A stretch of 64,000 nt of DNA, taken from the NCBI GenBank assembly GCA_022648545.1, contig JALCMP010000003.1:1-64000 (forward strand), given 5' to 3'. Source of the DNA: Bacteroidales bacterium. GTDB taxonomy: Bacteria > Bacteroidota > Bacteroidia > Bacteroidales > UBA932. This document shows, one piece after another, positions 7,609 through 63,166 of this stretch (within the stretch, counting starts at the first letter, position 1; each line of letters begins with the position of its first letter). Below the pieces are notes generated by a model that had not been told where the DNA came from, did not search any database, and saw nothing but the letters and a program-made list of their open reading frames with translations. The position numbers were made by a program, and so were the translations under genes.

Positions 7609-8168
7609 TGGGAATCGCTTTTCTTAAAATATTCTTCGATTTTTCCGCAAAGAAATTTCCTCGCCCTGAAAAACTGCGAGGAGGATGTTTTCTCGTTTAT
7701 GCCAAGTATTCCGGCTATTTCTTTATGTGATTTCTTTTCGAACACATAAAGATTAAAAACCGTCCTGTATCCGTCGGGCATTTCGCACAACATTTTCTGC
7801 AATACTTTTGCAGGGATCCGCTCAATCTCCTTTTCCTCCGGTTCGGTAAAAAGGCCGTCTACGTTTTCTATGGGAATTCCATCCTGCAATATATCTTTCT
7901 TCCTGAGCTTTTGCAGACATTCGTTGACCGTCACCTTGCTGTACCATGCACGGAAGGACCCGGGTCCCTGCCATTTGAATTTTCCGATGGACGAATATAT
8001 TTTGATAATGCTTTCCTGAAGCATATCCTCCGCATCGAAACGCGTACCCATGTATCTCAAACAGATACGGAAGACATTCTCCCCTATCATATGGTACATA
8101 CGCTCCATGGCCCTGCGATTATTATTCTGACATTTTTTTATTAATATCAGTTCGTCCATAGTCACCAT
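7605..8168 (-). CDS. ECF-type RNA polymerase sigma factor (copy 1)
   Basis: This 187-residue sigma-70 family protein contains region 2 (ICLRYMGTRFDAEDMLQESIIKIY, approximately residues 37-60) and region 4 with an HTH (SHKEIAGILGINEKTSSSQFFRAR near residue 145). Region 3 is missing, as in ECF sigmas. It probably directs transcription of its own module in response to an envelope signal sensed by the coupled membrane protein encoded next. Two in-frame ATG codons (at 8168 and 8159) are possible starts. Confidence 0.9.
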   Translation of the reverse strand: MVTMDELILIKKCQNNNRRAMERMYHMIGENVFRICLRYMGTRFDAEDMLQESIIKIYSSIGKFKWQGPGSFRAWYSKVTVNECLQKLRKKDILQDGIPIENVDGLFTEPEEKEIERIPAKVLQKMLCEMPDGYRTVFNLYVFEKKSHKEIAGILGINEKTSSSQFFRARKFLCGKIEEYFKKSDSQ

Positions 8169-8322
8169 ATTAAATCAAATGCAAAAAATACGGAAATACT
8201 GCATGTCTTTTAAATTACATGCCATGTATTAATTAAAAAACATACGGCACCCGTGCAGTATTTTACCTATAACTTCATTTATTAAATGTAGCCAAAATAT
8301 AAACATCACACACATCAAAAAT

Positions 8323-9127: not shown

Positions 9128-9854
9128 ATTTTATAAAGGTAAAGTAAACCGCCGAGACGGCGGCCACCGCTGCGGTTTCGGTTCTCAACCTCGACTCTCC
9201 AAGATGAACCGGAACGAAACCGTTCTTAATTGCAAGGGCCGCCTCTTCGCGTGAAAAATCTCCTTCGGGACCTATTAATATGGTTATATGCGGATAATCC
9301 CCCGAGGTCAGTCCGGCCTTATATTCCGACAAAGCTCCGGTTATGGATGTTTTGTCAGCTTCCCCGCAATAAGCGATGATTCTCAAATCTTTGTGCGGAT
9401 ACGATATAAAATCCGTTACGGAACAGGCTTCATGCAGTACCGGGACGGCTCCTTTCAGAGACTGTTTTGCCGCGGAAAGAAGGATTTTGTTGCATCTGTC
9501 GGATTTTATTATTTTACGTTCGGAATGTTCTCCAATTACCGGAAAGATATCGTCAACTCCGAACTCGGTGGATTTTTCCAGAAACCATTCGTAGCGGTCC
9601 ATGTTTTTTGTAGGAGCAACGGCCATCTCAAGCTTATATTCATGAGCACCGAAGCTCGGGACTACCGAAACCACCTCAAAATCCGTATTCTTGCCGGTAC
9701 GGGTTATTCTGCATTCATAGAATGTCCCCAATCCGTCTATTACGTTTATCATGTCTCCGATCTTATGTCTGAGGACGCGCACGCAATGCGAACTTTCTTC
9801 TTCGGAAAGTACTCCTTTTCCGTCAAATATGCTTTTAGAATAAAACAGTTCCAT
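9126..9854 (-). CDS. rsmE: 16S rRNA (uracil(1498)-N(3))-methyltransferase
   Basis: RsmE methylates N3 of U1498 in 16S rRNA, using SAM. The 242-residue protein has the N-terminal PUA-like domain (SSHCVRVLRHKIGDMINVIDG) and the C-terminal SPOUT knot with the signature LIGPEGDFSREE and LGESRLRTETAAVAA. Length and all SAM-binding motifs are standard. The gene is divergent from the acyltransferase-like gene at 9916. A possible minus-strand -7 box (CAAATTTA on the plus strand at 9862-9869) is so close to the start that the message would be nearly leaderless. Confidence 0.95.
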   Translation of the reverse strand: MELFYSKSIFDGKGVLSEEESSHCVRVLRHKIGDMINVIDGLGTFYECRITRTGKNTDFEVVSVVPSFGAHEYKLEMAVAPTKNMDRYEWFLEKSTEFGVDDIFPVIGEHSERKIIKSDRCNKILLSAAKQSLKGAVPVLHEACSVTDFISYPHKDLRIIAYCGEADKTSITGALSEYKAGLTSGDYPHITILIGPEGDFSREEAALAIKNGFVPVHLGESRLRTETAAVAAVSAVYFTFIK

Positions 9855-22558: not shown

Positions 22559-22584
22559 TTTCCGGGTTTCATAAAAACAATCAG

Positions 22585-24402
22585 ATGACTTATCTAATAA
22601 AAAAAATATTAGGCGGCTTTTTGAAATACTCTTTGCCGATTCTTATACTAGTGCAGGCTAATCCTGTTTCCGCACAAAGGATAAAAACCGTAAAAGGTAA
22701 ATCGTTACAAGGGCATTACAAATATAACGATTCTATCGATTCCATCCACCAAATAAAGGAAGACGAAGACAAATATTACTATTTTTACAAGGGAATAGAG
22801 TTCTACCTGCGTTCAATGTATGTTCCGGCGAGAGAATGTTTCGAAAGAGTCATAAGCCTCAACGATTCCAACGATGCGGCTTACGCCTATCTTTCGCGGA
22901 TCGCATTCATTAATAATAATGAAAAAGACGGGATCAAATTCCTTAAGATGGCCATAAAGAGGGATTCTGTCAATTACTGGTACAAAAACGAATTGTCGAG
23001 CTACTATATGAAAAAGCGCGACTTCGGCAATGCTGTTTCCATTCTCAAAAAAATGACCGAAGAATTCAAGGGCAAACCGGAAATTTATTACAATCTTTTT
23101 TATATATACGCGTCTACCGGCAACACTGAAAAAGCCGGCCGCACTCTGGACAGTATAGAACAGATAATGGGAAAGAACGAAGATACGGCTGAAAAAAGAT
23201 TAAGCCTGTTCCAGATGAAGCACGACTACAAAGGTGCGCTCGATTACCTGTTGTCCTACGACAGGAAAGAGAAATCGGCCAAGATAGAAACCATGATAGG
23301 AGATCTGTATAACAGTTCGAACAATGATTCGGCGGCAATAAGATATTATAATGCCGCTCTTGATAAAGAACCTTCTTATTTGCCGGCTCTTTATAAAAGG
23401 GCGGAATTTTACCGGGCTTCTTCCGATTACCCCAATTTTTTCGAATCGGTATATCCTGTATTTTCAAATCCCGAAATTCCTGTGGAATTCAAATCGGAAT
23501 ATCTGCGCCAGATATTCAAGACTTCGGGATTTATTACTACACAATACAGAAAACAGTCCGATTCCCTGGTCTCCGCATATTTAAACTCCAACCCGGCCGA
23601 TTCTTCCGCAAATTATATTTCAGCAGGTTATTTTTCTGAAATGGGAGACAAAAAACGGGCTGCAATCATACTAAAAAATTATAATGCGCTGGTTTCCAAC
23701 GAAACTACCGCTACCCATTATCTTTCTTTCATATATTATACAAAGGACTGGCCGCTTTTGGAAAAAGAAGCCGGAAAAGCCTCCGAAAGGTATCCGCACA
23801 GTGCGGGATTGCTGGAGTTATACGGAGAAGCTCAGGCTATGAACGGGAATTATCACGGAGCCATAATAAATTTCTCAAAACTCGAAAAATTCTATCATTC
23901 CCAAAAAGATACGGAACATCTCAAGCAGATATATTCAGTACTCGGGGACGCATATCATTCCATAAAAGAAAACCGGAAAGCATATTCCTACTATAAAAAA
24001 GCATTGAAGATCGACCCTTATTTTGCCCTGGTCCTAAACAATTACGCATACGATCTCACACTGGACAAAAAGCAGCTTAAAAAAGCATGCGAAATGGCGC
24101 GAATAGCCGTAGAAAAGGAACCCGACAATCCATCCTTTCTGGATACATATGCCTGGGCTCTGCACACGAGTGGAAATTCGCTAGACGCCAAGGCGCATAT
24201 GAGGCATGCCATGTTATACGGAGGAGACAAAAGCTTTACCATTCTCGACCATTATGCCGAAATTCTTTTTGCCCTTAAGGAATATGACCTTGCATTCATT
24301 TACTGGGAAAAAGCTCTGCCTTTGGATAAGGACAACATATTGCCCGCAAAAATAAAACTAAGAAAAGGCCAGCGTACACGGCAGGAAGCTGCAAAAAAAT
24401 AA
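22585..24402 (+). CDS. Exported tetratricopeptide repeat protein
   Basis: The 605-residue protein has an N-terminal signal sequence (LKYSLPILILVQANPVSAQ). The remainder is TPR-like helix pairs: for example ARECFERVISLNDSNDAAYAYLS near residue 75, AAIRYYNAALDKEPSYLPALYKRAEFY in the middle and AYSYYKKALKIDPYFALVLNNYAY near 475. It is probably a periplasmic or membrane-associated scaffold. It is followed one base later by an EnvC-like gene, so a role in cell-wall hydrolase control or division is plausible, but this is inference from position. Confidence 0.85.
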   Translation: MTYLIKKILGGFLKYSLPILILVQANPVSAQRIKTVKGKSLQGHYKYNDSIDSIHQIKEDEDKYYYFYKGIEFYLRSMYVPARECFERVISLNDSNDAAYAYLSRIAFINNNEKDGIKFLKMAIKRDSVNYWYKNELSSYYMKKRDFGNAVSILKKMTEEFKGKPEIYYNLFYIYASTGNTEKAGRTLDSIEQIMGKNEDTAEKRLSLFQMKHDYKGALDYLLSYDRKEKSAKIETMIGDLYNSSNNDSAAIRYYNAALDKEPSYLPALYKRAEFYRASSDYPNFFESVYPVFSNPEIPVEFKSEYLRQIFKTSGFITTQYRKQSDSLVSAYLNSNPADSSANYISAGYFSEMGDKKRAAIILKNYNALVSNETTATHYLSFIYYTKDWPLLEKEAGKASERYPHSAGLLELYGEAQAMNGNYHGAIINFSKLEKFYHSQKDTEHLKQIYSVLGDAYHSIKENRKAYSYYKKALKIDPYFALVLNNYAYDLTLDKKQLKKACEMARIAVEKEPDNPSFLDTYAWALHTSGNSLDAKAHMRHAMLYGGDKSFTILDHYAEILFALKEYDLAFIYWEKALPLDKDNILPAKIKLRKGQRTRQEAAKK

Positions 24403-55202: not shown

Positions 55203-55412
55203 TTATCTGTTTATAAAGTCTATAATCATCATAGGTTCATTTGTGGTGATTCTGTCCACCCCTGCTCTTATAAGCTTCTCCCACATTGCCTTGTCGTCTA
55301 CAGTCCATACATTAACTGAAAGGCCCAGCTTGTGTGCGCGTACTATCAGGTCCTTATTGCGCAAGAAAGAATAATAAGGCATACTGCCGACGGTAGAAAA
55401 ATAGGCGTTTTA
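55203..55412 (-). pseudogene. C-terminal remnant of a glycerophosphodiester phosphodiesterase gene, cut by the prophage
   Basis: On the minus strand the last 60 or so codons of a GDPD are readable: MPYYSFLRNKDLIVRAHK, then GLSVNVWTVDDKAMWE and GVDRITTNEP, ending in a stop at 55203-55205. These are the conserved last TIM-barrel strands of the family (the xVNVWTVxx and DxITTxxP motifs). Homology vanishes just upstream of the SMPYYSF segment, and an in-frame stop occurs at 55410-55412, so the N-terminal 80 percent is missing. The gene would be first in the ribokinase-susCD operon. The phage integrase lies immediately beyond, so the missing part is expected at the other prophage end. Confidence 0.85.
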
Positions 55413-55587: not shown

Positions 55588-56811
55588 ATGGCAAAATCAA
55601 AATTACGCCTCGATACCAGGCGACAGCTAAAAGACGGTACCTATCCGGTTCAGGTAGCCGTCGGTTATGGTTCAAACATCTACTTGGCCACCGGCATATT
55701 TTTAACTTCCGCAGACTGGGATAGCAGGACGCAGCGCGCTACCGGCCGAAACGCCAAACGCATAAACGCGGTATTAGATACGCTGCTTATCCGTGTTTCT
55801 AACCGCATACTGGAGCTAAGGGAGACGGGCCGCTGGGATAACCTTACCGGGCCGCAGCTTCGCGAAATGCTGACTGATTTAGATCTGGAAAGCCCCACGG
55901 TCGGAGTACCTACCCTCGGCGCCCTTTTCGATACGGTAATAGCCACTAAAACGGGCGGTACCGCTATGCTGTACGGACAGACGCTTAAAAAGCTGACGGC
56001 ATACTGCGATCCGTACCAGGTGCGCTTTGAGAAAATAACCAAACTATGGATAGACGGGTTTTACGCTTCCCTGGATCCGCTGGCCATTAATAGCCGGGCT
56101 ATGCACCTGCGTAACCTGCGTAACGTAATTAATTACGCCCTGGACGAAAATATTACGCAAAACTACCCGTTCCGTAATTACCGGATCCCGACGGAAGAAA
56201 CGGTTATGCGTGTGCTGCCGGTAGAGAAAATGCGGCAGCTGCTGGCGCTGCGGCTGTCGTCCTACGATACTGAGTACCGCGATATGTTTATGCTGTCTTT
56301 CTACCTTATCGGTATTAATATGGTGGATATGGCGGCGCTTACCAAAGATAACATAATAGACGGCCGCCTGGAGTACCGGCGGTCTAAGACTGGAAAGTTT
56401 TACAGTATACGCCTGGAGCCGGAAGCCATAGAAATAATAGCCCGCTATAGGGGCAAAAAACATCTGCTGGCGCCGTTTGATAGGTTCGACAGATACCAGG
56501 ATTATACGGCGCACCTTAACGCGGCGCTGCGTAAGATAGGCCCGCAGAAAATGGTAAACGGAAAGCCGGTATATACCAAAAACCACCTGCCCGTTATGGA
56601 TCCGCTGGAAGCCGGCATTACCTGGTACTGGGCGCGCTACAGCTGGGCCACCTACGCGGCCGATTTAGACATACCGAAAGATACGATAAGCGAAGCCCTG
56701 GGCCACAAATACGGCAGCAGCATAACGGGCGTATATATCAAATTCAGCAGGGATAAGATAGACGCGGCAAACCGGCGCGTAATAGACTGGACGGTTAAGG
56801 GCATAAAATAA
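55588..56811 (+). CDS. int: Phage tyrosine recombinase (integrase)
   Basis: The 407-residue protein has an N-terminal Arm DNA-binding domain (LDTRRQLKDGTYPVQVAVGYG), a SAM-like core-binding domain (residues about 105-195) and the catalytic domain. The catalytic Lys is in YRRSKTGKFYSIRL, the second Arg in YWARYSWATYAADL, the His in EALGHKYG, and the Tyr in GVYIKFS near residue 383. The usual first-arginine position reads GINMVDM, as in the Bacteroidales integrase group, instead of GxR. It recombines attP with an attB in the GDPD gene and points into the prophage. It is convergent with the lysis genes. Confidence 0.93.
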   Translation: MAKSKLRLDTRRQLKDGTYPVQVAVGYGSNIYLATGIFLTSADWDSRTQRATGRNAKRINAVLDTLLIRVSNRILELRETGRWDNLTGPQLREMLTDLDLESPTVGVPTLGALFDTVIATKTGGTAMLYGQTLKKLTAYCDPYQVRFEKITKLWIDGFYASLDPLAINSRAMHLRNLRNVINYALDENITQNYPFRNYRIPTEETVMRVLPVEKMRQLLALRLSSYDTEYRDMFMLSFYLIGINMVDMAALTKDNIIDGRLEYRRSKTGKFYSIRLEPEAIEIIARYRGKKHLLAPFDRFDRYQDYTAHLNAALRKIGPQKMVNGKPVYTKNHLPVMDPLEAGITWYWARYSWATYAADLDIPKDTISEALGHKYGSSITGVYIKFSRDKIDAANRRVIDWTVKGIK

Positions 56812-56845: not shown

Positions 56846-57298
56846 TCAAAATATCCGGCGTCGCCGTATAAACAAAAATATGATCCAAATAATGGCGGAT
56901 AGGCAGCATAGCCGGCCGATCCATATAAAGCCCTTGTTATACCATTTTATCGGCTTCTCAACCGGCACCGGCTTTTCTATCCGTATGCTGTCTACGCGTT
57001 CCATATAGACGGTATCGCGCAGCAGCTGGTTACGGTATACCGTATCGTGCAGCACCTGGTATTTGTACTTTAGCTTTTCCACGTATTGAGTAACCGTATC
57101 GCCCTTTTCCCGGACGTAGATACTGTCGTGGACGTAGATACTGTCGTGCTTGAAAATGTTATTTATCAGACTGTCGATATGCTTGTGCGCGGTGTACGTG
57201 CTATCCATCGTCTGCCGGTTCTCGCTTGGCGTGTACCGGGTGGCAGCGCATCCGGCCAGCGTCAGGCTAAGCGTCAAAAGTAGTATAAAGTTTTTCAT
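56846..57298 (-). CDS. Lysis protein with unimolecular-spanin topology
   Basis: From the preferred ATG at 57298 the product is 150 residues. It begins with a lipoprotein signal peptide (MKNFILLLTLSLTLAGC, Cys 17), continues with a polar, coiled periplasmic region that has a perfect repeat (HDSIYVHDSIYV), and ends with one transmembrane helix (GRLCCLSAIIWIIFLFI) followed by RRRRIF. An N-terminal outer-membrane lipid anchor plus a C-terminal inner-membrane helix is the topology of u-spanins such as T1 gp11, which fuse the membranes at the end of lysis. It lies directly after the amidase and holin genes, which supports the role. An upstream ATG at 57334 is unlikely, since it would place 12 residues before the signal. 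Confidence 0.75.
   Translation of the reverse strand: MKNFILLLTLSLTLAGCAATRYTPSENRQTMDSTYTAHKHIDSLINNIFKHDSIYVHDSIYVREKGDTVTQYVEKLKYKYQVLHDTVYRNQLLRDTVYMERVDSIRIEKPVPVEKPIKWYNKGFIWIGRLCCLSAIIWIIFLFIRRRRIF
57113..57148 (-). repeat. 18-bp perfect tandem repeat in the spanin gene
   Basis: GACGTAGATACTGTCGTG occurs twice in succession at 57113-57130 and 57131-57148. It encodes the repeated HDSIYV segment of the lysis protein and could vary in copy number by slippage. Confidence 0.9.
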
Positions 57299-57300
57299 AT

Positions 57301-57702
57301 CTATAGCTCTGTTTGTACGTCGAAGCACGGGCACGCCTTGTTTGCAAATTCCCGGTGGCCGTGGATCGTCGCGTTAGGATAATCGGTTTTAAGTTTTGCC
57401 ACCAGATCGCGCAGTGCCTGGCGCTGCTGCGGTGTCCTGGTGTCCTTTGGTGTCTTGCAGTCTGCGGCCAGCCCGCCTATATAGCAGATACCGATACTGC
57501 CGGTATTCTTTCCTTTGCAGTGGGCGCCTATTTTGGCCAGATCCCGCCCGGTATGCACGCTGCCGTCTCTGTAGATAACAAAGTGGTAGCCTATTTCGGC
57601 AAAGCCCCGCTGGCGGTGCCAGCTGTCAATATCAGCCACCGTGTAGTCGCGGCCCTCCGGGGTGGCGCTGCAGTGTATAATAATTCGGTCTATCTTTCTC
57701 AT
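57301..57702 (-). CDS. Phage endolysin, N-acetylmuramoyl-L-alanine amidase
   Basis: The 133-residue protein is a T7-lysozyme-like amidase (amidase_2 type). It has a zinc histidine in IIIHCSATPEGRDY (H10), GYHFVIYRDGSVHTGRD, AHCKGKNTGSIGICYIGG, and a C-terminal HGHREFANKACPCF with the second histidine and cysteine ligand. No signal peptide is present, so release needs the holin. It cleaves the bond between MurNAc and the peptide stem. It overlaps the holin gene by four bases. Confidence 0.93.
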   Translation of the reverse strand: MRKIDRIIIHCSATPEGRDYTVADIDSWHRQRGFAEIGYHFVIYRDGSVHTGRDLAKIGAHCKGKNTGSIGICYIGGLAADCKTPKDTRTPQQRQALRDLVAKLKTDYPNATIHGHREFANKACPCFDVQTEL

Positions 57703-58169
57703 TTCTTTATCTCCTTGTTTTGTTTGTCGTCCGTCTGGTGGGTAAGCAGTTCCGCTACCAGCTTCGCTACATCCTCCTTATTTTCTACTACGATATTCAT
57801 AGTACGCTCGGCTTTACGTATTTCTTCCTTTTTCCAGGCTTTCTCGCGTACGCTGGTAAATTCGCAGAAAACGCACCAGGCCGCCCAGGCTAAGGAAAAT
57901 ACGGGAAAGGGTATAATAACGCAGGTAATAAGGTCTATACATATCAGCACCATAAACGGGCTAAAGTATTTACGCGCTTTGTCGCAAGTCTTTTTAAATC
58001 CGGTGGACGTTGTGGCCTGGCCGTTCTGCCTGGCTTTGCGTACCCCGAAAAATAAGTCTATAGCCATACTGGCGATAATCGCTACAGTAGCTACCAGTAT
58101 AAGTACTATATCTAACAGCAGGTGGTCTTTTACGAAATCGCCGGCTACCTCTAAAAGCGTTTCTTCCAT
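57699..58169 (-). CDS. Phage holin
   Basis: The 156-residue membrane protein has a first helix pair (LLLDIVLILVATVAIIASMAI) and a second hydrophobic stretch (FMVLICIDLITCVIIPFPVF) continuing into WAAWCVFCEF, followed by a highly charged C-terminus. That is the pattern of the phage holin family 4-type proteins in Bacteroidales phages. It makes holes that free the endolysin. The gene comes first in the lysis cassette holin-amidase-spanin. Confidence 0.8.
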   Translation of the reverse strand: MEETLLEVAGDFVKDHLLLDIVLILVATVAIIASMAIDLFFGVRKARQNGQATTSTGFKKTCDKARKYFSPFMVLICIDLITCVIIPFPVFSLAWAAWCVFCEFTSVREKAWKKEEIRKAERTMNIVVENKEDVAKLVAELLTHQTDDKQNKEIKK

Positions 58170-58171
58170 TT

Positions 58172-58327
58172 CTAAATATTTGTTTTTTGGTATACTTCTA
58201 TTTTGACGTTATCAGCTTGCCGGTCTATTATTACCAGCCAGTGTTTAGCCAAAGCCTGCACCAGTTCCACGTCCAGATCCGGCAGGCATAGGACGGCTAA
58301 CGCTTTCGGCGTGTTAGTAGGTTCCAT
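58172..58327 (-). CDS. Small protein between the reverse transcriptase and holin genes
   Basis: A 51-codon frame begins with ATG at 58325-58327 and ends at a TAG at 58172-58174. The product starts MEPTNTPKALAVLCLPDLDV and includes an amphipathic helix (ELVQALAKHWLVI). Its start overlaps the end of the reverse transcriptase gene by 14 bases and its stop is two bases before the holin start, so it fits the operon spacing and is probably real. No function is recognised. Confidence 0.5.
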   Translation of the reverse strand: MEPTNTPKALAVLCLPDLDVELVQALAKHWLVIIDRQADNVKIEVYQKTNI

Positions 58328-59501
58328 CGCGTATTCTTTGCAGGGTTTTAACCCTCGGTTTATATTTGTTCTTTAATGCTACCACTTCGTAAGGCCCTTT
58401 TATATACGCGTATTTAAACGCGTTTGGTTCCATTTTCTGCAGTATCTTTCGTCTTAGCTTAAATTCATTGCACTGACGCAGAAAACCTAAGTAGCTGTTT
58501 ATGCTGCTTACGGCGTGCTCCGCTTCCTCCGGTATCTCTGCCCGGTTCAGCCGGCGTATGGCCATAACGAATTTTTTTGCCGTCCGGTTGCATATATAGA
58601 TCCGGTTCAGCTTTACTACATTTCCGGTAAATGTTACGCCCTTGCTGTAGTGCTGCAGATAGAATTTAGTAGGGCTGAGACGCAGCCCGTATCTGGCCAG
58701 CAGCTCGCGGATCTTCGGCACGGCCTGCAGCAGTTTTTCTTTGTACCGGTATATTATGTAAAAGTCGTCTACATATCTGCCCACATACGCGAAGCCCAGC
58801 TGGTTTAACAAATACCAGTCCAGGACGTTTAGCAGATAGTTAGCGAACAGCTGGGAAAACAGATTGCCGATAGCGACGCCCAGGCCCTCGCCGTTTGTAA
58901 ACAGCGATTTGTTAGGCGGTAGGTAGTTCCACATATACGCGGGGCTGTGCTTCTCGCAGTTATTCTCCGGGCAGTGCAGTATTACTGTCCTGCTCAGATA
59001 CCGCAGGTCGTCTCTATCGTCCGCGTTCTTGTATTTTTCCACTATGAAATCGTCCAGCATATCCGCCAGCATAGCTCTGTTTATAGACATAAAAAAGCCC
59101 TGCAGATCCAGTTTCATAATATAGCAGTCCTGGGTATAGTCGCGGCTGCATCTGCGTACGTCGCTTTGCAGCATTTTAACGCCGTACAGCTGCCCTTTGC
59201 CCTTTCGGCAGTTAAATGTACGCGGGCTGAAAATCTGCTCAAATAGAGGCTCTAAACGTAACGCTATCCAGTGGTGCACTATCCTATCTTCAAAAGAGGC
59301 CGCAAATACTTCTCGATACCTCGGACGCGTAACGACAAAGCATATAGATTTACCGGGTTTATAGGTACGCGCATTTATGCGATCACGTAACGCGATTAGC
59401 TTACTTTCGTAATCTATTTCGTACATTACCGCGCTTGCTGTCCTCCGCTTTCTTTTACGGCAGTCAAAATATGCGTCTAATAGTCCTATAGTGGTAATCA
59501 T
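58314..59501 (-). CDS. brt: DGR reverse transcriptase
   Basis: The 395-residue protein carries the reverse transcriptase palm and fingers: the first catalytic aspartate is in KLDLQGFFMSI (D132), the motif IGNLFSQLFANYLLN (211-225) has the SQ pair typical of DGR-type enzymes in place of SP, and the active-site box is YVDD at 243-246 in FAYVGRYVDDFYI. A thumb region with NSYLGF follows. There is no maturase, endonuclease or integrase fusion. It synthesises the mutated cDNA from the template RNA, with Avd. It starts 38 bases downstream of the template repeat, the usual order. Confidence 0.96.
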   Translation of the reverse strand: MITTIGLLDAYFDCRKRKRRTASAVMYEIDYESKLIALRDRINARTYKPGKSICFVVTRPRYREVFAASFEDRIVHHWIALRLEPLFEQIFSPRTFNCRKGKGQLYGVKMLQSDVRRCSRDYTQDCYIMKLDLQGFFMSINRAMLADMLDDFIVEKYKNADDRDDLRYLSRTVILHCPENNCEKHSPAYMWNYLPPNKSLFTNGEGLGVAIGNLFSQLFANYLLNVLDWYLLNQLGFAYVGRYVDDFYIIYRYKEKLLQAVPKIRELLARYGLRLSPTKFYLQHYSKGVTFTGNVVKLNRIYICNRTAKKFVMAIRRLNRAEIPEEAEHAVSSINSYLGFLRQCNEFKLRRKILQKMEPNAFKYAYIKGPYEVVALKNKYKPRVKTLQRIRDGTY

Positions 59502-59539
59502 ATATTTAAAGTTTCTTTGTGTCTGGTTCTCTGCAATAG

Positions 59540-59643
59540 TGCTGAAACGGCCCTAACCCGATTGTGATTGGTTGCCTTATTGTTGTTGTTCACGTTGCCG
59601 TTGTTGAGGTTCAAATTCCACGCGTTGGTCGCGGAGTACTCGG
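59540..59643 (-). repeat. DGR template repeat (TR)
   Basis: This 104-bp non-coding segment aligns without gaps to the variable repeat at 60221-60324, with 12 mismatches. On the coding (minus) strand all 12 differ at an A in the template. Read in the frame of the variable protein it contains twelve AAC/AAT codons, the design that gives the widest amino-acid choice when adenines are mutated. It is between avd and the reverse transcriptase. Confidence 0.97.
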
Positions 59644-59678
59644 CTACTCGCAACTTCGTGCCGGTCTGTTTTCTACTT

Positions 59679-59705
59679 AACTATAAATGATAGTGCCCGG
59701 CCCAT
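59679..59705 (-). repeat. Short remnant resembling the 3' end of a variable gene
   Basis: On the minus strand, just upstream of the template repeat, GGGCCGGGCACTATCATTTA followed by TAGTTAAG reads GRALSFIVK and a stop. This matches the end of the variable protein (RAVSAFIV, stop) and shares ATTTATAGTT with 60211-60220. It may be a leftover of a second variable gene or of the duplication that made the template. The match is short, so the case is weak. Confidence 0.35.
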
Positions 59706-59757
59706 TTTTACAGATAACTTGCGCGCTTGGTTAGTCGTAACCGTCCAAATCTGGCAT

Positions 59758-60144
59758 TTACTCGTTATCTATGCTGTTTGCCCTTATTAACGAGTTCTTC
59801 CACGCGGTCGCCTGCTTCCCTATACCGTCCATAAGTTCGATAATATCTGCGTGCCTGCTTACTCCTAATATCCATTTCCTCTCGCCCGCTATGCGTGTTA
59901 GAGTTTTCAGTACTTCAAAGCTGGTCTGAAAATTAACCAGGTGCTGTATACGTACGGCCCGATCTCGGTTTATGTACGCCGCCGATATTTCTATTAAAAG
60001 ATTAACGGCTATATCGTGCATCTTGCTGCCGATACTGAATTTATAGGCCCTCGGAAAGCTCGGCGTAACGTCCAGTATTACGTCCAGCAGCTTACGGCAG
60101 TCTAAGTATATCTGGGTTCTTGCTACCAGCTTCGGTTTGTTCAT
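59758..60144 (-). CDS. avd: Accessory variability determinant (Avd)
   Basis: The 128-residue protein is helical throughout and matches the four-helix-bundle Avd family: LVARTQIYLDCRKLLDVIL, then PRAYKFSIGSKMHDIAVNLL, AYINRDRAVRIQHLVNF, and a final helix VLKTLTRIAGERKWI. Avd forms a pentamer that binds the reverse transcriptase and template RNA and is needed for mutagenic homing. It sits between the variable gene and the template repeat. Confidence 0.93.
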   Translation of the reverse strand: MNKPKLVARTQIYLDCRKLLDVILDVTPSFPRAYKFSIGSKMHDIAVNLLIEISAAYINRDRAVRIQHLVNFQTSFEVLKTLTRIAGERKWILGVSRHADIIELMDGIGKQATAWKNSLIRANSIDNE

Positions 60145-60161
60145 TTCTCTACTACGTAAAA

Positions 60162-60183
60162 TAGTACGGCTTTCGCCGTACTA
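60162..60183 (-). promoter_or_regulatory. Stem-loop with GAAA loop downstream of the variable gene
   Basis: A perfect 9-bp stem (TAGTACGGC / GCCGTACTA) with a 4-base loop that is GAAA on the coding strand lies 37 bp beyond the variable repeat. In the Bordetella phage DGR a similar short hairpin with a GAAA loop beyond the variable repeat promotes homing as a cruciform. The same role is proposed here by analogy. Confidence 0.6.
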
Positions 60184-60208
60184 AAGGTTAAAGGATAACT
60201 ACTAACTG

Positions 60209-60970
60209 TTAAACTATAAATGCTGAAACGGCCCTAACCCGATAGTGATTGGGGGCCTTATTGGTGTAGTTCACGTAGCCGTCGTTGAGGCCCAAACGCC
60301 ACGCGGTGGTCGCGGAGTACTCGGTAGACGTCCAGTAATACGCTTCTGCCAGCGGCGTAGCGCCGTTAATGAATGATAGCGCGTAATTGATTTTACGCAT
60401 ATTTGCGTATATCATCAGCATTTCGCCCAGCGACGGCAGCCACCATTTACCGGCAGTCAATCCCTGGCCGTTTGCATTTGTCCTGCTGTAAGCGGCACAA
60501 AAACCCGGTGCGTAGCTTTCCGTATTACATTCGCTGTGCGTAATCTGCGCTGCAGTATTTGTTTTTCCGGCCCAGTCGTCCATAGCGGTAAGTCTGTTAC
60601 TGGTGGTTACCCCGCCGGCGCTTACTGCTGCGCTGCTCCATAATAGGCCGCCGCTGTCGGCTTCCGTAGGGGCTACCACTAATATTTTGCCGCCCTCTAC
60701 CACTACGACGCCCTCGGCCAGTTCTCCGCCGTTTTGCTTACTCGTCCAGTTTTCAGGTTTAATCATATACGGGTAATCATTTTGTTTTAAATGGTACATA
60801 ATGAATACCCCGTCAGATATGGCGTTTAGATTTACGCCGGCCAGCATTGCCGCTTTAAGGTCTGCCAGCGATACTTTAGTGGCGTTTCCGTTCCCGTCGG
60901 TAAGGATAAGATACTGCCCACTGTTTACGGTCGTAACCGTACTAACTTCGTTAAATTTCTTTGTTTGCAT
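60209..60970 (-). CDS. DGR-diversified phage protein with C-type-lectin-like fold
   Basis: The 253-residue protein has an N-terminal part (MQTKKFNEVSTVTTVNSGQY) typical of a tail or baseplate attachment domain, and a C-terminal C-lectin/FGE-like domain (GKWWLPSLGEMLMIYANM, YYWTSTEYS, YRVRAVSAFIV). The variable repeat encodes the last part, from T216 to A250. Relative to the template, diversified residues are T222, R225, G227, D230, Y232, Y235, T236, P240 and Y243, plus a silent change at A239. It probably forms the receptor-binding tip. It is preceded on the same strand by the tail-fibre-like gene. Confidence 0.95.
   Translation of the reverse strand: MQTKKFNEVSTVTTVNSGQYLILTDGNGNATKVSLADLKAAMLAGVNLNAISDGVFIMYHLKQNDYPYMIKPENWTSKQNGGELAEGVVVVEGGKILVVAPTEADSGGLLWSSAAVSAGGVTTSNRLTAMDDWAGKTNTAAQITHSECNTESYAPGFCAAYSRTNANGQGLTAGKWWLPSLGEMLMIYANMRKINYALSFINGATPLAEAYYWTSTEYSATTAWRLGLNDGYVNYTNKAPNHYRVRAVSAFIV
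60221..60324 (-). repeat. DGR variable repeat (VR)
   Basis: These 104 bp are the 3' part of the variable gene and align to the template repeat at 59540-59643. The twelve substitutions are all at template adenines, including AAT to CGT and AAC to GGC double changes. The last 20 bases in the coding direction (60221-60240) are identical, as expected of the initiation-of-mutagenic-homology segment. Confidence 0.97.
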
Positions 60971-61003
60971 AATCTTTAAAAATGTTTTTATAACAGTTAT
61001 AAT

Positions 61004-62119
61004 CTACCAGTCGCGCGGGATCTTATACTGGATCCAGGCGCCGTAATAGGTTGCGTTTCCTACTGTACGTATAATATCCCGGCACCAGACAAAATCGGAA
61101 GCGTCGCCCTCGCCTTTAAGGTCTACGCCTGAGTGTCCGTCTGCGGTATCGTTTCTATCGTATATTATGCAGGGTATACTCATTCTTGTAGCCCCGCTGT
61201 CGTTATACGTTTCGCAGTTATAGGAGTATACATTAACTTTCGCCGTTCCTAAACGCTTTACGCGTACTATATAGCCGTCATCGCATAATCTCATAAACGG
61301 AAGCCTTAAATTTGCGTTTTCTGTATTTATGCAAATAATATTTGCTTCGCCTCTATTCATATAGTGCGAGCTGCTCATTATAGTATTATGCAGTGAAAAA
61401 CCCGAAATACTCCCGCCGTCTATGTCTATAGCTATGTTTCTGCGCGCTCCCTGGGAAGATACCAGCATACCATAATTAGCACCCAGCCCCCAGTGATTGG
61501 ACGTATCGCAGTTTTCAAATCTGGCTACAGCTCTGGCGCCGCTGGACGCTGGTAATACATTACCGCCGATACCCGCAAACGCTTTCATAGCGTCGTTTCT
61601 AAAGATAACGTAGGCGTCATTATCAAACGGATCATTTGTTAGCCCGTTCCCCGAAATTTTAAAGCCGGCTACCTTTCCGCTTTGTACGTCTATGTTTCTA
61701 AATATTCCGGTTTCGCATTGTACGGTACCGTCTTTAGCCTTGAATTTAATATTACCCTGGCTATCTTTCATTTCGATGGTTTCTACTCCCAGGTTTTTAA
61801 CCAGCGCGTAGGTGGTCATTAAAATTTTAGTGGCCACCAGCTCTATACGGTCGCCCAGTCTCCAGTAGTGCTGCGTCTGGTCTGTCGCGCTTCCGGGGTA
61901 ATTGCTTTCTGTCTTTGTATGGCTTCTGTTGCATTTGTAATACTCCCCACCATATAAAACGACGTCTACCCAGGTATCGCCCTGCGTTCCCGCCTGGAAA
62001 GTATACCCGTTAGCGCAGTCGCTCCAGGCCTGCGGACCTCTAAGCGTAGCGCCCTGGTCTCCTTTGCTGCCCTTACGTATAAATTTTACTACTTGTGTTT
62101 TGGATATACTTTTAGCCAT
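61004..62119 (-). CDS. Phage tail/fibre-type protein
   Basis: The 371-residue protein starts with a short KGSKGDQGATLRGPQ collagen-like segment after VVKFIRKG, then WSDCANGYTFQAGTQGDTWV, and later KDSQGNIKFKAKDGTVQCET and GKVAGFKISGNGL, typical of phage tail proteins that attach to the baseplate. It has no enzyme motif. It lies 33 bases upstream of the DGR target gene on the same strand and may carry or chaperone it. The exact structural role is inferred from position and composition. Confidence 0.75.
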   Translation of the reverse strand: MAKSISKTQVVKFIRKGSKGDQGATLRGPQAWSDCANGYTFQAGTQGDTWVDVVLYGGEYYKCNRSHTKTESNYPGSATDQTQHYWRLGDRIELVATKILMTTYALVKNLGVETIEMKDSQGNIKFKAKDGTVQCETGIFRNIDVQSGKVAGFKISGNGLTNDPFDNDAYVIFRNDAMKAFAGIGGNVLPASSGARAVARFENCDTSNHWGLGANYGMLVSSQGARRNIAIDIDGGSISGFSLHNTIMSSSHYMNRGEANIICINTENANLRLPFMRLCDDGYIVRVKRLGTAKVNVYSYNCETYNDSGATRMSIPCIIYDRNDTADGHSGVDLKGEGDASDFVWCRDIIRTVGNATYYGAWIQYKIPRDW

Positions 62120-62125
62120 AGTCTT

Positions 62126-63166
62126 TTATTCTTCGCTTGTTATTGTTACCGATACGTCGCCGCCCGCCTGCTGGCAGTGCGCACGCGTTACCGTCTGGCT
62201 TGCTTTTGCCGTAGTTCTGTCGGCGTTTAGGTAAACGCCCGCCGCGTCTTTCAGGACGAAATAAAACAGCGTGTCTAACGCTTTTGTGGACGTTCCGCGC
62301 TTGACTACTACCGGCGTATAGGTTACTTCGCCGTTACCCGTCAAATCCTCGGTTATCGCCTCATCTTCGGGCTGCGGATGCGGGTCTATATCGTACGGGT
62401 CGGAAGCGTCCATTACGCCTTGTATATCGGTTCCTATCTCTGCGCCGTTCCTTGAAACGTGTACGCGATACTCGCCGTAGGTATTAATATCCGCTGCGCT
62501 TACCGTAAGCGTCTGGCTGGTGGTTCCCAGTGCCTCCCATCCGGTAGCGCCCATTTTCTCCCACGCGTAGGTAAGATCTAACGATAGGGCCTGGCCGCTC
62601 TGGTATGCCATCGCCTTTAAAATGCAGCTTCCGTTTTTCTCGGTAATAACGAAATTTTTATTATCCCCGGCAGCTATTGTTACGCGGTAGCTGCTGCCGG
62701 TTGCCGGCTGTATCGGTATGGTATAGCTGGCCTGGATAGTATCGGTTTGCGTACCGTACGAAATGGTGGCTACCATCTTGATAACTGCGGGCGCGAAGCC
62801 GGCTATATCTACTATGTTTTTAAGGATCTGCAGGCCATAGTAAAGCTGGTCGCCGCTCGGTGCTATAGTTTTGAAATATCCGGCGAAAGTTCCGGTAGAT
62901 ACTCCGCCGCTGAAATTGATTTTAGTACCGTTAAAATAGTACTCCATAGCGTCGGGATCTGCGACGCCCTCGGCTGACCGGCTGCTGGTGCAAACGAAAT
63001 ACAGCACCGGTTTAGTTTCTGCGAAATTAGGATAAATCGCTGTGCAGTCCTGCGGTGTTCCCTCGTAGTCCTGGTATAAATCCCCGGCAGGGCACATAAT
63101 CAGCGCCGTATAGGTTCCGGCCTTGCTGATAAATTTAATAGATCTACTTGTGCTTGCTATACTCAT
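62126..63166 (-). CDS. Phage structural protein with Ig-like segment
   Basis: The 346-residue protein begins with MSIASTSRSIKFISKAG and has beta-rich repeats. A likely Ig-type segment lies around residues 195-240 (LDLTYAWEKMGATGWEALG, SQTLTVSAADINTYGEYRVH). It looks like the upper baseplate or tail-associated proteins of Bacteroidales phages. No firm family assignment. It is six bases upstream of the fibre-type gene and belongs to the same late operon. Confidence 0.65.
   Translation of the reverse strand: MSIASTSRSIKFISKAGTYTALIMCPAGDLYQDYEGTPQDCTAIYPNFAETKPVLYFVCTSSRSAEGVADPDAMEYYFNGTKINFSGGVSTGTFAGYFKTIAPSGDQLYYGLQILKNIVDIAGFAPAVIKMVATISYGTQTDTIQASYTIPIQPATGSSYRVTIAAGDNKNFVITEKNGSCILKAMAYQSGQALSLDLTYAWEKMGATGWEALGTTSQTLTVSAADINTYGEYRVHVSRNGAEIGTDIQGVMDASDPYDIDPHPQPEDEAITEDLTGNGEVTYTPVVVKRGTSTKALDTLFYFVLKDAAGVYLNADRTTAKASQTVTRAHCQQAGGDVSVTITSEE

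Follow-up and report, generated by a model that had tools for sequence, protein, structure and literature searches.

Does the segment at 58314-60970 of a Bacteroidales contig hold a complete diversity-generating retroelement (DGR), and is the element one that could still work? The segment lies in what we call the window, the first 64 kb of contig C3 (JALCMP010000003.1, 190 kb) of a 2.37-Mb draft genome that is 85% complete (GCA_022648545.1). A sequence-only reading had marked it as a DGR, and the frame given there does contain a reverse transcriptase (RT), a template repeat (TR), the accessory protein Avd, a variable repeat (VR), and a target gene. With these parts and a recipient hairpin all present and intact, the DGR reading is supported. 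The element is almost certainly a complete DGR built on the plan of Bordetella phage BPP-1 and carried by a prophage that resembles the Bacuni phages, a degree of confidence that applies to its identity and plan. Its features are as follows.

60209..60970, minus strand: target gene, 253 amino acids, with a predicted C-terminal Lcl_C/DUF1566-type (lectin-like) region and the VR at its 3' end (open reading frame and profiles)
60221..60324, minus strand: VR, ending 12 nt ahead of the stop-codon end of the target gene
60221..60243, minus strand: unchanged 3' end of the VR, resembling an initiation of mutagenic homing (IMH) site and identical to TR 59540-59562
60162..60183, minus strand: perfect hairpin with a 9-bp stem (TAGTACGGC/GCCGTACTA) and a GAAA loop, 37 nt past the VR; candidate homing hairpin or cruciform
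59758..60144, minus strand: Avd accessory protein, 128 amino acids (PF22296 bAvd, 1.5e-27; phrog_3206 'Avd protein of DGR', 6.6e-16)
59540..59643, minus strand: TR, between avd and the RT gene
58314..59501, minus strand: RT, 395 amino acids (PF00078 RVT_1, 2.2e-18; phrog_1423, a phage RT family, 5.8e-80)

Read along the minus strand, the order is target (60970-60209), avd (60144-59758), TR (59643-59540), and RT (59501-58314), with spacers of 64 nt between target and avd, 114 nt between avd and TR, and 38 nt between TR and RT.

The relation between the two repeats carries the identification. A repeat search aligned TR and VR gaplessly along 104 nt and gave 12 mismatches, each of them at a template A as read on the coding (minus) strand. 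As 35 of the 104 TR nucleotides are A, the probability of this outcome is 4.8e-7 (hypergeometric); at the non-A positions TR and VR are the same in 69 of 69 cases. In the target frame the TR has 12 AAC/AAT codons, 8 of them altered and 4 kept, and the altered codons include the double substitutions AAT to CGT and AAC to GGC. Our recount agrees with the codon tally of the sequence-only reading, whose repeat coordinates, alignment, and mismatches were reproduced exactly; two further altered codons, GCA to GCC (silent) and ACC to CCC, were absent from it and bring the number of differing codons to 10. The VR lies at the 3' end of the target and in its reading frame. The last altered A lies at TR offset 80, and the next 23 nt are identical in TR and VR. 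As judged from sequence, this invariant shared 3' end is IMH-like by position and identity.

We also searched for a second VR. Only TR and VR matched the TR over their full length in the source genome (a draft, 85% complete), the four other matches being 14-29 nt long, and a scan of 124 kb of the contig that disregarded template A gave background only (at most 34/69 non-A positions). A degenerate TR pattern, with A read as N, matched only the window's own two copies among 397 genomes, its own included. The same pattern matched six stretches in viral contigs, one of which (L088) is the same contig as locus L007; L083-L087, found in this way, were left out of the analysis.

The RT, Avd, and target frames are open over their full length. 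Among solved chains the RT matched 8ub7_A best (4.3e-26), which we take to be the RT of BPP-1, and its RVT_1 match is unique within the source genome. Its frame contains IGNLFSQ and YVDD, in line with (I/V/L)GxxxSQ and YxDD, the two motifs reported for the RTs of DGRs (PMC3521204). The target matched phrog_4245 (unknown function, 3e-13), and it aligns with the targets of nine relatives at 55-71% identity.

We analyzed relatives of the cassette in viral contigs (14 loci), genome contigs (33 loci), related genomes, and the records of Bacuni phages F1, F2, and F4. Repeats were sought with two finders. The first, applied to 36 loci, favours A by design and had a mirror-image control for T; four C and four G matches were swaps in which the VR had been taken as the template (L018, L041, L042, and L044). 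The second was blind to the base and covered 50 loci, the window included, with up to four repeats listed per locus and L082 left out; L027-L045 were scanned by the first finder only. Among the matches listed, the base-blind finder gave a repeat near the RT in 36 of 50 loci and none in 14, L017 being one of the 14 though the first finder had given 22/22 changes at A there. Several loci with an RT identity below 60% stand outside the clade counts: the repeats of L019, L057, L058, L060, L061, L066, and L069 are not A-specific, L064 has one A-specific repeat and one that is not, and the pairs in L072 and L079 appear to be swapped or on opposite strands.

The clade set, made up of cassettes with an RT identity of at least 60%, F1, F2, F4, and the window, numbers 16 cassettes. 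L009 was removed before pooling because its TR and VR equal those of L008, leaving 15 cassettes that are not all independent. Pooled ranges were trimmed at the shared GCA. Their 5' edges mostly come from the first finder, whose preference for A could have removed non-A differences there. In these ranges 208 of 521 template A were altered in the VR, compared with 1/435 C, 1/379 G, and 1/206 T. The changes were A to C in 40 cases, A to G in 101, and A to T in 67, with no marked heterogeneity among cassettes (p 0.28). Non-A substitutions in related phages, named in the sequence-only reading as a point against a DGR, are not what we see here, with 3/1020 non-A positions altered in the trimmed ranges.

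Pairs of near-identical relatives separate template from recipient still more clearly. L007 and L050 (98.1% identical over 3.6 kb) have identical templates, and their VRs differ at 17/37 A and 0/66 other positions. The templates of L052 and L053 (97.4% over 12 kb) are likewise identical, with VR differences at 14/30 A and 0/76 others. For L011 and L012 (97.1% over 6.0 kb, 79 nt compared) the template has one difference and the VRs differ at 15/32 A and 1/47 others. F2 and F4 (99.7% and 99.97% in two pieces) share their template and differ in the VR at 17/35 A and 1/68 others; F1 and F4 give the same counts, which are not independent of these, and the VRs of F1 and F2 differ at 1/35 A and 0/68 others. 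The pair L008/L051 was left out because the template lengths differ. A common template with VRs that differ almost only at template A shows that the family diversifies. The check proposed in the sequence-only reading, a constant template with A-limited variation of the VR, thus holds in the near-identical relatives, to which it was applied.

A hairpin or cruciform downstream of the VR is known in a subset of DGRs. The one at 60162-60183, absent from the sequence-only reading, is the single occurrence of a stem of at least 7 bp with a GRNA loop on both strands of 124 kb of the contig. The same scan of stretches from ten relatives gave one each in seven, always just past the VR, and no such hairpin in L013, L052, and L049 (F1, first 28.9 kb). 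When the loop was left free, a perfect stem of at least 7 bp starting 27-41 nt past the shared end was present in 15/15 cassettes, the window included, and no stem of this length was found within 150 nt past the TR (0/15). The loop is of the GRNA type (GAAA, GGTA, GATA, GGAA) in 12 of the 15, at a distance of 30-41 nt from the VR; L013, L052, and L053 have other loops. The stems vary in sequence among cassettes yet pair. BPP-1 homing requires a hairpin past the VR, and the phage set described with it has GC-rich stems of 7-10 bp and 4-nt GRNA loops (PMC3240598). The VR-hairpin distance in that set is 4-34 bp (PMC3240598), which the 37 nt of the window slightly exceed.

The closest cultured kin that we found are the Bacuni phages F1, F2, and F4 of Bacteroides uniformis (MT635598, MT806186, MT806185), whose DGR has been published (PMC8143477). 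They share with the window the order target-avd-TR-RT, followed by an amidase and a recombinase nearby, and the hairpin past the VR, called VR2 in these phages. Over the DGR stretch the DNA identity is ~74%, and the targets are 68-69% identical as proteins. Changes between TR and VR fall on A in 13/13 (F2), 13/14 (F4), and 13/13 (F1) cases. Unlike the window, F1 has a second VR, VR1 (record 22563-22665), in another gene near the DNA polymerase, with 16/16 changes at A; by eye, VR1 is followed by a GCCCGGC/GCCGGGC stem with a GCAA loop. The window prophage has one VR and no counterpart of VR1 was found in it, the next template match reaching 34/69 non-A positions. When compared by eye, the order of tail genes, DGR, lysis genes, and recombinase in the window prophage is similar to that in F1. 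The Bacuni paper describes the DGR, its adenine substitutions, and two target genes, reports that F1 and F4 infect different ranges of hosts and that VR2 holds three quarters of the single-nucleotide polymorphism sites between them, and mentions that B. acidifaciens and Prevotella sp. carry related prophages (PMC8143477).

In BPP-1, mtd comes first in the gene order, as the target does in the window, and its product Mtd belongs to a lectin-fold group other than the Lcl_C/DUF1566 type of the window target. Avd, adenine mutagenesis, a GRNA-loop hairpin past the VR, and the order avd-TR-brt are further common points, and the BPP-1 target is a tail-fibre protein (PMC3240598). The Legionella DGR, with an Lcl/DUF1566-type target, is named as the closest studied DGR to that of Bacuni (PMC8143477). 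The window target differs from the Legionella target in that its gene is placed after phage tail genes. The target of the Legionella DGR is reportedly a surface lipoprotein.

By analogy with BPP-1, RNA of the TR would be copied by the RT together with Avd, with errors at template adenines, and the cDNA, entering by way of the shared 23-nt end and the downstream hairpin, would then take the place of the target's 3' end. As a result, codons near the C-terminus of a lectin-like protein of the tail region, 10 of which differ here, would be redrawn and the rest would stay fixed. We infer these homing steps from the BPP-1 system; the element may be active in this lysogen today. The cassette of the window is probably functional. 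Its target may be an adhesin or receptor-binding tip; the latter is suggested because the gene is sited after tail genes and host range correlates with the VR in F1 and F4 (PMC8143477).

Several observations weigh against this reading or parts of it. With the base-blind finder and its wider ranges, 208 of 230 mismatches in the same 15 cassettes fall on A, leaving 22 at other bases (17 C to T, 3 C to A, 1 T to A, and 1 G to A); the 17 C-to-T cases include the boundary base at the end of TR/VR identity. The VRs of the near-identical pair L008/L009 are identical. The lectin fold of the target is a prediction from sequence, its match to PF07603 Lcl_C (4.2e-8) scoring 33.9 bits at a cut-off of 34.9, and an NCBIfam search with the target gave no match. 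Avd matched NCBIfam NF033474 (4.2e-9) with 36.6 bits, under the cut-off of 80, and had no match among solved chains. An Rfam search of 57000-62000 gave no match up to E 1. Finally, the VR of this prophage is seen in one state, in one draft genome. Searched against PDB sequences, the target alignment yielded a single weak match, 8q4e 'HbP1' (E 0.0027, 44 residues), which was not used, and a literature search pairing HbP1 with 'diversity-generating' found nothing.

The single VR state would also fit a relic, that is, a DGR that formerly diversified the VR and is now silent in this prophage for want of transcription or a host factor. We consider this unlikely. RT, Avd, and target are open over their full length, the catalytic motifs and the hairpin are intact, and genes for packaging, head, tail, and lysis can be recognised in the prophage. 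Moreover, an old relic should have amassed non-A differences between TR and VR, which agree at all 69 such positions.

It is far less probable that the TR is a short protein-coding gene translated ahead of the RT. In the window, F1, F2, and F4 its open frame has a 4-base overlap with the start of the RT gene, and the Bacuni paper speaks of a 'TR containing gene' (PMC8143477). In the other 11 of the 15 cassettes, however, the frame stops 7 or 20 bases short of the RT, stops within it after 7, 38, or 131 bases, or continues into it in frame; start codons are not conserved, and the window frame has no ATG. The frame comparison across the 15 cassettes led us to reject the TR as a coding gene. An open frame arises in any case because the TR mirrors the VR. 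The records of F1, F2, and F4 carry the TR as an annotated coding sequence (L046 7218-7463, L047 7212-7457, L048 5026-5271), which is probably an over-annotation because the frame is not conserved in relatives. A simple duplication of the 3' end of the gene followed by divergence under selection, with no retroelement, explains that two copies exist and nothing more, and it can be dismissed as highly improbable given that 12/12 changes are at A, that the same rule holds across 15 cassettes, and that RT and Avd adjoin the TR.

The DGR reading thus stands, and the element itself is unsurprising, an ordinary DGR of the Bacuni type. The kind of element is already known; what is new is a clean, intact prophage example added to the Bacuni-type DGRs.

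Two further features of the clade stand out. Of the 11 relatives whose RT motif 4 was checked, 9 carry AQ where SQ is held typical; SQ itself occurs in the window, F1, and F2. The carriers are:

L007, L008, L010, L011, L013, L015, L050, L051, and L052: AQ in RT motif 4

In AQ cassettes, too, differences between VR and template are almost confined to A. The near-identical AQ pairs L007/L050 and L052/L053 (L053 judged from its RT sequence) still differ at A in the VR, as do L011 (AQ) and L012 (motif not read). AQ is listed as a rare variant in PMC3521204, whose authors left the functionality of such cases open. The second feature is the base at the end of TR/VR identity, after the shared GCA, which is C in every TR and T in every VR (15/15 cassettes, not all independent). 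This pattern may come in part from an invariant phenylalanine of the target, F251. We tentatively suggest, as a possibility that we would rate somewhat below even, that the C/T boundary base and a recipient-only hairpin 27-41 nt on form a minimal IMH*/IMH code for one-way transfer, with the serine of SQ dispensable. If true, the fixed boundary base and the recipient-only hairpin would make transfer one-way. The clade amounts to a small natural data set with constant templates, differing VRs, SQ and AQ RTs, and recipient-only hairpins, which could be used to ask what signals guide homing and what residues of the RT control adenine errors.

The genes around the DGR within the window place it in a prophage.

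61004-62119 and 62126-63166, minus strand: tail-module genes upstream of the DGR (phrog_22546, unknown function, 8.3e-18; phrog_3267, tail protein, 2.9e-10)
57699-58169, minus strand: holin-like gene past the DGR (weak match, 20.2 bits at a cut-off of 22.2)
57301-57702, minus strand: amidase endolysin past the DGR (profile matches)
55588..56811, plus strand: tyrosine integrase of the prophage (PF13102, PF17293; phrog_1)
55203..55382, minus strand: C-terminal remnant of a host glycerophosphodiester phosphodiesterase (GDPD) gene, the left prophage edge (PF03009, profile positions 202-242 of 244)

Beyond the window the phage goes on, with family matches for tape measure, major tail, major head, maturation protease, portal, terminase, and DNA polymerase. 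The N-terminal part of GDPD lies at 93165-94214 of contig C3 (PF03009, profile positions 1-169). As the GDPD gene is split into two parts, the prophage is ~37.8 kb long. We looked for an empty integration site with the N-terminal GDPD part, which at E 1e-60 matched nothing in 20 genomes other than its own, and ARAGORN found no tRNA in C3 50000-124000. Candidates for the core of the attachment site are a 13-mer common to 55460 and 93157 and a near-repeat found by eye, CCTTATTAT/CCTAATTAT.

Some distant loci showed unusual mutation spectra. L042, a distant relative on the reverse strand, has its TR at 1203-1395 and its VR at 129-321, with 44 differences, all at A and 43 of them A to G, which turn many Asn codons into Gly or Asp. 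This spectrum is far from the mixed one seen in the clade (40 C, 101 G, 67 T). L018 (4658-4735) and L065 (5658-5735), which look like the same element by their equal counts and spacings, each have one of three VRs with 15/16 changes from A to G; the other two, which share its template, show mixed G and T and no C. In L079, from Saccharibacteria, the repeats at 8074-8296 and 9161-9383 differ mainly on T (21/23) of the copy nearest the RT, the pattern that an opposite-strand template would give.

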